Position numbers and translations under genes: made by a program | In this document: in pieces, positions 53,762 to 60,375 of the stretch | Position numbering within the stretch: position 1 is the first letter of the stretch | Layout: each line of letters opens with the position of its first letter | Notes under the pieces: generated by a model | What the model was told of the DNA's origin: nothing | The model's input: the letters and a program-made list of their open reading frames with translations, nothing else | The model's database searches: none | Origin: Candidatus Mediterraneibacter merdipullorum | GTDB taxonomy: Bacteria; Bacillota; Clostridia; Lachnospirales; Lachnospiraceae | DNA: 61,637 bases | Direction: 5' to 3' | Assembly: GCA_019117125.1 (NCBI GenBank) | Contig: DXAL01000042.1 | Location: 1 to 61,637 of the forward strand

Positions 53762-53962
53762 AGAGTGAACGAAGAAGTTAACCTGGGATGTGCGACAACC
53801 CTGTAATTTTGAACCTACATTTGTTTAAACGGGATTCCTATATTTCTGCGCAATATGTCAGGCCTCCGATATGCAGTGGACGACAGAAAAGCAGATGCGG
53901 TTGCCCACCTGGCTGCGGCTAGGACTCAAAATACAGGACCGGCATTTTGGGTGAACTGCTAA
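53762..53962 (+). ncRNA. ssrS: 6S RNA (SsrS)
   Basis: About 200 nt. A terminal helix pairs AGTTAACC (about 53776-53783) with GGGTGAACT (53949-53957) with one mismatch; the interior arms carry Clostridia 6S-like blocks (GCGACAACCCTGTAATTTTGA near 53792; GGACTCAAAATACAGGACC near 53922). 6S RNA mimics an open promoter and binds the housekeeping RNA polymerase holoenzyme in stationary phase. It has its own promoter and terminator and no open frame. The call rests on remembered family features; exact ends are approximate. Confidence 0.78.
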
Positions 53963-58732: not shown

Positions 58733-59353
58733 TCAGCGCAGCATGCTGAGTATCATGAGTATCAGGACAACGATGAAAATGATTTGTCCGACTCTTTCCG
58801 TACCGATGTGGACTTCTTCAAATTCCCGCGGATAGTTGAAGATGTCGGGGTCGCTGCGGTGCTGCTTCCAGTGAAAATCCTCCAGATAGTGCTTCCAGCC
58901 GCTCTGGTCAGTATATACTTTGACCTGGGCAGCCCCCAGATACCGGTGGATGGGACGGCGGTAGCCCTGGCTCTGGATTTCCGAAGTCATCCCGGTAGCC
59001 GGGTCTGTGATTTCCACATTCAGATGATAATATCTTCTGTATCTCAGACGTCTGTGGTCGCCGGATGTATAGTAGGGGACATCCTGGCGCGTCACACCGG
59101 TAATCCTTCCGTAAGAGACGTTGCCCAGGGCGATGGCATTCGCCCGTTCCCTGCGGTAAAACAGGGCGCGGCGGATGCTGGTGACAGTCTGATATACCGG
59201 CATCAGACCACCTGCGAGAAAGATGAGCAGAGGAATCTGGAAACCGTTCTTTGCAATGATGCCTCCGATGGCGGAGTACCACAGGATGCAAAACAGTATG
59301 ACAGGCAGGATATTGCCGATTTCTTCTTCTGCCGGTCGTATCCGGGATTTCAT
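58733..59353 (-). CDS. membrane protein of unknown function with central soluble domain
   Basis: 206 residues: two N-terminal helices (about 13-33 and 37-56), a cytoplasmic or external domain rich in Tyr/Arg (GDHRRLRYRRYYHLNVEITDPATG...SQGYRRPIHRYLGAAQVKVYTDQSGW) and one C-terminal helix (about 186-204). The middle resembles DUF3592-like domains that carry Tyr-rich beta strands; weak call. ATG at 59353 with AAGGAGA upstream. The far side of its promoter faces the cloverleaf repeats. Confidence 0.7.
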   Translation of the reverse strand: MKSRIRPAEEEIGNILPVILFCILWYSAIGGIIAKNGFQIPLLIFLAGGLMPVYQTVTSIRRALFYRRERANAIALGNVSYGRITGVTRQDVPYYTSGDHRRLRYRRYYHLNVEITDPATGMTSEIQSQGYRRPIHRYLGAAQVKVYTDQSGWKHYLEDFHWKQHRSDPDIFNYPREFEEVHIGTERVGQIIFIVVLILMILSMLR

Positions 59354-59468
59354 AAGACAGGTCTCCTTTCCGTTGCGCGTGAGCAGCTTTTCTCTATCGT
59401 ACCCCTGTAAAAGCATAAAATCAAGAAAAAACGGATGACCGGAAACAGGGGGAGAGAAAGAGGGTTGT

Positions 59469-59496
59469 CAAATGAACATACACAAATGAACATACA
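59469..59496. repeat. 14-bp perfect tandem repeat
   Basis: CAAATGAACATACA occurs twice in direct succession (59469-59482 and 59483-59496), just upstream of the cloverleaf repeats and downstream (in reverse) of the 59353 gene start. AT-rich; may be a regulator site or slippage product. Confidence 0.7.
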
Positions 59497-59520
59497 TGCT
59501 CGCCTGGTTCTCCGCTTTGT

Positions 59521-59592
59521 GGTATAATGATTGCGCTGACGCGCAATCCAGACCGATCATATCGGTCTGCCCGGCGGTGCCGGGATTATACC
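59521..59592 (+). ncRNA. candidate cloverleaf element, copy 1 (RNA or DNA structure)
   Basis: Perfect four-way cloverleaf of 72 nt: closing stem GGTATAAT/ATTATACC (59521-59528, 59585-59592); hairpin 1 GATTGCGC-TGAC-GCGCAATC (59529-59548); hairpin 2 AGACCGAT-CAT-ATCGGTCT (59550-59568); hairpin 3 CCCGGC-GGT-GCCGGG (59570-59584). Only two bases (59549, 59569) are unpaired at the junction. It has no tRNA features such as a T-loop consensus or CCA. Function unknown. Confidence 0.6.
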
Positions 59593-59651
59593 GGAAAGCC
59601 ACGGCTTGGAAAGAAAATGGCGCAGAGCGCCGCTTCTTTTCCTGCGCACGT

Positions 59652-59723
59652 GGTATAATGATTGCGCTGACGCGCAATCCAGACCGATATGCTCGGTCTG
59701 CCCGGCGGTGCCGGGATTATACC
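59652..59723 (+). ncRNA. candidate cloverleaf element, copy 2
   Basis: Same fold as copy 1 at 131 bases distance: closing stem 59652-59659 with 59716-59723, hairpin 1 at 59660-59679, hairpin 2 AGACCGA-TATGC-TCGGTCT at 59681-59699, hairpin 3 at 59701-59715. Only the loop of hairpin 2 differs (TATGC against TCATA), so all stems are conserved. A transcript from the -10 of copy 1 would contain this copy in full. Confidence 0.6.
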
Positions 59724-59785
59724 GGAAAGCCACGGCTCGGAAAGAAAATGGCGCCTGAGCGCCGCTTCCTTTCCTGCGCATGTGG

Positions 59786-59791
59786 TATAAT
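59786..59791 (+). promoter_or_regulatory. extended -10 of the third partial repeat, promoter of the GNAT gene
   Basis: TGGTATAAT with TATAAT at 59786-59791, about 68 bases before the ATG at 59860. It is the last of three identical extended -10 boxes spaced 131 and 132 bases apart, so the GNAT gene may have three stacked promoters. Confidence 0.6.
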
Positions 59792-59859
59792 GTATGCGGA
59801 CACAAAGAAGCAGGCGCGCACAGGAATCTGGCGCACAGAAATCTGATAAATGAGAGAAT

Positions 59860-60375
59860 ATGGACAGAGAGAAAATACAGGCTTATCTGAAAGAAAGAAA
59901 TATGCATTTGATTACGGAAGATGACGACGCGGCAATCGCGGCAATCATCCGCGCGAATCTGGAACGATATCATCTGGACATCCCCGGAACAGCGTATTTT
60001 GACCCGGAGCTGGACCACCTGAGCAGATATTATAATGGTGAGCCGGATGAGAGGGCGTACTTCATCCTGACAGACGGGAGCGGACAGGTGATTGGGGGAG
60101 TGGGCATTGCAGATTTCCCCGGGTTTGAACGGTGCGCAGAGATTCAGAAGCTCTATGTGGCAGACGGATGGAAAGGCCGGGGATACGGGAGAATGCTAAT
60201 GAAGACAATAGAGGAATATGCCCGGGAAGCAGGCTTCCAGAGATTGTATCTTGAGACACATTCCAATCTGGATGTGGCCATGCACATGTATGAGAAGTAT
60301 GGATTTCATCTGATCGGGCGGCCGGAGACAGTTGTGCACAGTACCATGGACCGGTTTTATATGAAAGAACTGTAG
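59860..60375 (+). CDS. GNAT-family N-acetyltransferase
   Basis: 171 residues: N-terminal helical part, GNAT core with GQVIGGVGIADFPG, EIQKLYVADGWKGRGYGRMLMKTIEEYAREAG (acetyl-CoA loop RGYG) and LETHSNLDVAMHMYEKYGFHLIGRP. Complete and probably active; substrate unknown. The ribosome binding site is weak (GAGAGAAT). It follows the cloverleaf repeats and its TAG stop is the first triplet of the palindromic element at 60373. Confidence 0.9.
   Translation: MDREKIQAYLKERNMHLITEDDDAAIAAIIRANLERYHLDIPGTAYFDPELDHLSRYYNGEPDERAYFILTDGSGQVIGGVGIADFPGFERCAEIQKLYVADGWKGRGYGRMLMKTIEEYAREAGFQRLYLETHSNLDVAMHMYEKYGFHLIGRPETVVHSTMDRFYMKEL

Follow-up and report, generated by a model that had tools for sequence, protein, structure and literature searches.

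A tandem cloverleaf repeat at extended -10 promoters of Mediterraneibacter and other Lachnospiraceae, probably a miniature mobile element able to split and rebuild them

The window analyzed here is a stretch of 61,637 nucleotides from Candidatus Mediterraneibacter merdipullorum (assembly GCA_019117125.1, contig DXAL01000042.1, forward strand). Near its right end, an array of two repeat units and three TGGTATAAT boxes (59520-59791) lies upstream of a gene for a GNAT acetyltransferase. The features of this locus are as follows:

59520..59528, plus strand: left extended -10 TGGTATAAT, its TG probably native and its TATAAT probably the 5' end of unit 1
59523..59653, plus strand: unit 1, TATAATGATTGC...GCACGTGG, 131 nt, delimited by copy spacing and by junctions at the LysM-linked locus (see below), with boundaries uncertain by 1-3 nt
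59521..59592, plus strand: cloverleaf domain of unit 1, 72 nt, from RNA and DNA folding and per-helix covariation
59521-59528 and 59585-59592, plus strand: stem P1 of unit 1, GGTATAAT pairing with ATTATACC in the predicted fold
59529-59548, 59549-59569 and 59570-59584, plus strand: hairpins of the unit 1 cloverleaf in the predicted fold (8, 9 and 6 bp)
59599..59653, plus strand: tail domain of unit 1, a CCACG/CGTGG stem around a long hairpin, from the RNAalifold consensus and covariation
59599-59603 and 59649-59653, plus strand: tail stem arms of unit 1, CCACG and CGTGG, respectively
59654..59785, plus strand: unit 2, 132 nt, from repeat comparison and a covariance-model match
59652..59723, plus strand: cloverleaf domain of unit 2, the copy at +131, read directly from the sequence
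59783..59791, plus strand: right extended -10 TGGTATAAT, its TGG probably from unit 2 and its TATAAT probably native; presumed promoter of the GNAT gene
59860..60375, plus strand: GNAT acetyltransferase gene downstream of the array (PF00583, 3.8e-22)

The tandem cloverleaf is real and strongly non-random, and the tandem 131-bp repeat with a 72-nt cloverleaf reported in a preliminary description of this DNA was borne out. The two units are 131 bp apart and 95% identical over 105 nt, and they match the covariance model described below with 153 bits (59519-59659) and 149.6 bits (59650-59791). Folding of positions 59519-59649 gave -64.2 kcal/mol as RNA (z, -5.6) and -41.6 as DNA (z, -6.8), and in neither case did any of 200 shuffled sequences fold as well. 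Some details of the preliminary description need revision. It gave hairpins of 8, 8 and 6 bp with two unpaired bases at the junction; the cloverleaf itself stands, but these two bases add a ninth base pair to hairpin 2, and the predicted fold of unit 1 has no unpaired junction base. It also confined the differences between the units to a loop, which holds inside the cloverleaf (the tip of hairpin 2) but not in the tail. This conserved tail is a second domain that had been overlooked. In its hairpin, AAATG and CGCTT face each other as the sides of an internal loop, and its CGTGG overlaps the TGG of the following TGGTATAAT box. Every unit of the array contains a terminator-like hairpin. The window contains 10 occurrences of the motif TGNTATAMT (1.2 expected), 3 of them inside the array. 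Directly upstream of the array, a 14-bp sequence is perfectly repeated in tandem (CAAATGAACATACA x2; 59469-59496), and an ordinary housekeeping RNA, 6S RNA, lies at 53777-53957 on the plus strand (Rfam RF00013, 58.2 bits).

To characterize the fold, we used a MAFFT alignment of copies of the element; one antisense match (L051:681-816) was left out before alignment. For a structure derived from that same alignment, 97.5% of 2,344 cells were paired (88.4% in shuffles), and 252 cells were doubly changed, compared with 72 in shuffles and 6 to 24 in slid-structure controls. Each of the seven helices was at least 95.6% paired. One of the five covariation measures, the number of further pair types, showed no excess (51 versus 51.5 in shuffles). 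A set of 116 distinct full copies was collected from loci gathered in several ways; these copies are neither a random sample nor independent. In the right stem, they carry CCA/TGG (75 copies), CTA/TAG (9 copies), CTG/CAG (8 copies), CCG/CGG (1 copy) and CTC/GAG (1 copy), with 13 copies not fully paired and 9 unreadable. The copies ending in TAG or CAG mostly keep this pairing despite the lost TG, and the fold thus seems to outweigh that half of the promoter. P1 covaries solely at the N of TGN, since TATAAT itself hardly varies; the pairs at this position are G-C (110 copies), A-T (4 copies, perhaps 2 of them independent), C-G (1 copy), G-T (1 copy) and the mismatched A-C (2 copies), and 23 further matches, which were not deduplicated, had no readable partner. 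Compensatory stem changes, which the preliminary description proposed to look for, are therefore present, and this heavy covariation at the sequence level indicates that the fold of the element is under selection.

The preliminary description also proposed that the element could fire in both directions. In a promoter scan of positions 59350-59900, the sole sigma-70-like site lay on the minus strand, TTTCCA-16-TATAAT in unit 1 (59585-59612; score, 10/12; 0.7 expected by chance), whose TATAAT is the right arm of P1. At least four of the six bases of TTGACA are found 16 to 18 nt before this box in 65 of 101 readable copies, and the TG of an extended -10 is absent from 93 of the 101 (present in 8). 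The -35-like hexamer is thus often kept and the TG is mostly missing, and backward firing from the minus-strand box may occur.

The element is widespread in the genus. In its own genome, blastn identified nine matches on nine contigs, and the unit was present in 24 of 61 genomes (its own and 60 relatives), a count that includes its own genome and a weak match outside the genus (G043). A covariance model, for which 50 full units served as the input, had matches in 42 of 58 Mediterraneibacter genomes (weak and antisense matches counted) and in 9 of the 150 genomes sampled from the family, its own included; the matches of at least 4 of these 9 (i.e., G089, G177, G187 and G193) are to divergent elements that share the hairpin. 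Outside the genus, its distribution is patchy among other Lachnospiraceae. A 27-base end pattern identified 86 stretches in genomes of named species (80 of these loci were included in a further covariance-model search), of which many are from Mediterraneibacter and others carry the names Blautia, Eisenbergiella, Acetatifactor, Anaerobutyricum, Dorea, Merdimonas, Mordavella and Claveliimonas, among others. In Lachnoclostridium sp. An76 (L244), the end-pattern matches are 78 bp apart, in an array composed partly of shortened units. The presence of the element in other genomes and its variable copy number, both raised in the preliminary description, were thus confirmed. Mean identity between copies was 0.856 within genomes (126 pairs) and 0.729 between genomes (3,097 pairs), a difference that none of 500 shuffles reached (same-locus pairs excluded; genome labels assigned by hand for part of the loci). 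This is as expected of lineage-specific amplification. An origin from plasmids or phages was rejected, as blastn yielded no match to the element in either and one 27-base end pattern had no match in viral contigs. A known structured RNA family was likewise rejected, because no family of Rfam 15 reached its gathering score; the sole weak match was ftsZ-DE (E value, 0.94; 16.6 bits against a cutoff of 72.2). A description of such a family was not found in open-licence papers, which is a weak negative.

Copies of the element occupy promoters. The left hexamer is TATAAT in all 115 readable full copies, as matched with a search model that itself contains TATAAT, and the right hexamer is TATAAT in 107 of 116. 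The right end reads TGG in 85 of 113 readable copies and CAG or TAG in 23, so that some copies lack a restored TG in the right extended -10. A start codon with a ribosome-binding site and an open reading frame follows on the same strand within 250 nt in 111 of the 116 full copies, compared with 831 of 2,000 positions drawn at random from these loci and judged by the same criterion (P = 5e-36, with copies not independent); the criterion is a loose one, which 985 of 2,000 random window positions pass with a 60-aa cut. On the other side, 43 of the 116 copies have a divergent gene. Clustering by shared words sorted the downstream genes into 62 groups, and 20 of these were scanned with Pfam. These 20 include genes for DNA polymerase I (polA), AddB (addB), a ParA/Soj-type ATPase, NFACT, MTHFR, TetR, four response regulators and two AAA/DUF4143 ATPases, among others. 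With most of the scanned functions unrelated, a regulon of like-functioning genes is unsupported.

These positions bear on a reading in which the element is not itself mobile and instead constitutes a cis-acting regulatory RNA or promoter module, selected by the host and spread by ordinary recombination. Its location at promoters in the same orientation as the gene, its folded RNA with a terminator-like hairpin in each unit, and the 4 response regulators among the 20 scanned downstream genes would all suit such a module. However, the remaining downstream genes have no evident common function, the element is patchily present at orthologous promoters, it occurs in tandem arrays and as truncated remnants, and the left arm of P1 would lie outside an RNA begun at the left -10. 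We regard this reading as very unlikely.

Orthologous promoters with and without the element were compared at three loci, in all cases between species and with one genome per species, so that excision or recombination is possible at any single site. The GNAT orthologs of three sister species (G025, G031 and G032; loci L338, L339 and L340) share 87% amino acid identity with the GNAT protein of the window, and a single TGGTATAAT directly precedes the gene at each of these loci, compared with three at the GNAT locus of the window. This comparison supports the proposal of the preliminary description that the third -10 drives the GNAT gene. The second locus is the promoter of a gene downstream of a LysM protein (here, the LysM-linked locus), for which sequences were retrieved from 50 of 55 listed places; 48 of them were readable (those of G075 and G008 were not parsed). 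Of these 48 promoters, 6 contain a full element, 2 contain a partial one (its own genome and G065), 3 contain different inserts at the same -10, and 37 have the native -10 alone or a short remnant; among the promoters classed as empty, those of G029, G064 and perhaps G033 resemble 5' remnants. The empty state is the commoner and a widespread one. A quick tree of 30 adjacent proteins, in which gain is not distinguishable from loss and G029, G064 and G033 are labeled empty, requires at least four changes for the full insert and three for the other inserts. These other inserts, which look unrelated, lie between two -10 sequences at L143 (G026), L138 (G080) and L133 (G012). At the third locus, the promoter of a DUF5685 gene, full, partial and empty states are all seen.

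Junctions at the LysM-linked locus point to the sequences that the element brings with it. In G078, the left junction has TATAAT and the right one has TATACT, the hexamer also found in the element-free G010, G014 and G068. In G007, TGG is present at both junctions, and its three closest relatives (G063, G079 and G071) have TGC; in G067 and G002, the left junction has TGG, in contrast to TGA in their nearest relatives (G004 and G064). The N of TGN is G in all 8 full or partial copies at this locus, as it is at 5 of the other 37 promoters. These comparisons suggest that (G)TATAAT on the left and CGTGG on the right most likely belong to the element, and entry was most likely between TG and TATAAT, with 1-3 nt ambiguous from microhomology. 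Although GTATAAT is present at both element ends, the TATAAT/TATACT pair of G078 and the TGG of G007 against a native TGC oppose a target duplication, and the junctions at this one locus are compatible, within the same 1-3 nt, with an insertion next to a fixed short target that is not duplicated. A plain target-site duplication with inverted ends was rejected from the comparison of the ends and is doubtful from the junctions.

The same junctions are open to an explanation that involves no dedicated enzyme, in which gene conversion or template switching between the direct repeats of TGGTATAAT that flank the element spreads it. The motif is present at both ends of the element and at many promoters, filled sites have G as the N of TGN, and no mobilizer was found, all of which fit this explanation. 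It leaves unexplained the strongly kept fold and, above all, a right stem that covaries even where TG is destroyed. We consider template switching or gene conversion a serious rival, if an unlikely one.

Our preferred interpretation is that the array consists of copies of a miniature non-coding mobile element of approximately 130 nt, which probably splits and rebuilds extended -10 promoters. Among the four options listed in the preliminary description (i.e., a promoter-array switch, a non-coding RNA, a folded single-strand recombination substrate and a miniature mobile element), the last is the best fit, given the dispersed copies, the lineage-specific amplification and the filled and empty sites. 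The location of the element at -10 boxes, the filled and empty sites, the covarying fold and the lineage-specific amplification are observed; mobility as their cause, the exact breakpoints and the activity of both rebuilt -10 boxes are what we infer from them. The element would insert into an extended -10 promoter between TGN and TATAAT and would supply the missing half-sites, with a 5'-terminal TATAAT and a 3'-terminal (C)GTGG. At the left junction, the native TG and the TATAAT of the element would form a promoter that reads into the element and keeps any native -35; at the right junction, the TGG of the element and the native TATAAT would drive the gene from the old start region. Because both junctions recreate the TGGTATAAT target, re-insertion would account for the tandem arrays, and loss of the last unit by deletion would leave the 5' remnants seen at several loci. 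Most likely, a trans-acting recombinase would act on the folded single strand, with the internal ATTATACC as a putative guide that pairs with the left end and CCACG as one that pairs with the right end.

Internal complements of both ends recall the guides of IS200/IS605 elements and the tags of REP sequences, as set out in the sections of PMC6006769 on these elements, and Y1 (HUH) transposases were therefore examined as the mobilizing enzyme. On this explanation, a Y1 transposase of the RAYT or IS200 type would move the element, which would be REP-like or an IS200-derived miniature element. Its structured ends without a terminal inverted repeat, the fixed short sequence beside the insertion and the tandem arrays agree with such an origin. 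In most copies, moreover, the right end is GTGG or GTAG and pairs with CCAC or CTAC, in the manner of the GT[AG]G tags that PMC6006769 describes in its passages on REP sequences. RAYT genes were identified in 38 of the 58 genomes of the genus; they fall into two RAYT-like classes (L170-L195; approximately 260 to 310 aa, mostly one copy of each per genome), one located near the LysM-linked locus, approximately 2 kb upstream of the LysM-linked gene, and the other often on the contig of the DUF5685 gene.

The distribution of these genes tracks that of the element weakly, however. RAYT genes occur in 31 of the 42 element-bearing genomes of the genus and in 7 of the 16 element-free ones (Fisher's exact test, P = 0.06, uncorrected for kinship), and no RAYT gene was found in the genome of the window. 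Across the family sample, 34 of 150 genomes have RAYT, and among the 9 with a covariance-model match, G226 is the only one. Five of 19 carriers under other names have RAYT, and An76, which is among these five, is apparently the genus genome G062, given identical coordinates. A Y1 protein of any kind is absent from 8 of the 42 element-bearing genus genomes and from 11 of 18 carriers under other names (present in 7; genome completeness unstated), although such a protein may have been there in the past. One carrier without a detected Y1 protein, Blautia sp. Marseille-P3201, nevertheless contains copies up to 98.6% identical. In the limited flanks of 50 Y1-gene loci, elements were found solely at the LysM-linked promoter of two genomes (L189 and L191). 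A mobilizing enzyme was thus not found among the Y1/RAYT proteins of the carriers, and RAYT/IS200 as an obligatory partner was rejected, since it is missing from many carriers in the genus, in the 150 family genomes and in the 18 or 19 carriers under other names. We therefore judge mobilization by a Y1 transposase to be improbable, and the absences from carrier genomes, together with a GTTRRRY core in just 4 of 116 units, weaken the proposal that the element is a Y1- or attC-type recombination substrate.

A bolder extension of the mobile-element reading, which we offer tentatively and consider rather unlikely, is that the melting region of the promoter is itself the target. The element would enter at the upstream edge of the -10, perhaps via the RNA polymerase bubble, with internal guides pairing with GGTATAAT and CGTGG and with no need of a Y1 or other known transposase partner, and it would form, together with a divergent family in G177 (L322-L329), a broad class of promoter-bubble elements. 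The repeats of the G177 family often begin with TATAATGTGAACA on the promoter strand, and their AAATG/CGCTT hairpin is opposite in orientation to nearby -10-like boxes; as read by eye, two of eight loci (L323 and L326) are clearly boxed on both sides and the others on one side.

If the mobile-element reading is correct, the element would represent a clear case of mobile DNA that spares its host, because the promoter it splits is restored on both sides. Such restoration would allow the element to sit before essential genes such as polA, and in gut Lachnospiraceae, dozens of genes would need a new reading of their promoters and 5' leaders. Which enzyme moves the element is an answerable question, as a named carrier without a detected Y1 transposase is at hand.

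Among known systems, integron attC sites also act as folded single strands and occur in tandem arrays, but the element has no cassette gene, and an attC site was rejected because the GTTRRRY core is so rare among the units. The structured RNAs of Rfam share a conserved, covarying fold with the element, and no family reaches its score. The miniature elements of IS200/IS605 resemble it in lacking terminal inverted repeats and in having folded ends and internal complements of the ends that are reminiscent of guides (in the part of PMC6006769 that deals with them); they differ in that the would-be left guide of the element lies behind three hairpins and that Y1 is absent from many carriers. REP sequences and REPINs with their RAYT (TnpA-REP) are likewise small, dispersed, structured intergenic repeats with a GTGG/GTAG-like end tag and genome-specific amplification. 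REP hairpins are 21 to 65 nt in size (PMC6006769, in its account of REP), whereas the element is approximately 130 nt, has two domains and a four-way junction, and sits in the -10 of promoters, and RAYT is neither required for the element nor flanked by it. REP sequences have GT[AG]G at the foot of a hairpin; the GTGG/GTAG right end of the element stands before the next P1 stem instead of a simple hairpin, a position that may or may not correspond. Classical miniature inverted-repeat transposable elements (MITEs) and other small repeats of bacteria (BOX, RUP and Correia elements, among others) are similar in being short, non-coding and dispersed and in being able to carry promoter sequence. 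A MITE of a DDE transposase was rejected, as terminal inverted repeats were not seen in the 115 units compared (0 to 4 of 12 end positions match). In contrast to MITEs and these small repeats, the element has no terminal inverted repeats, and its target is the -10 box itself.
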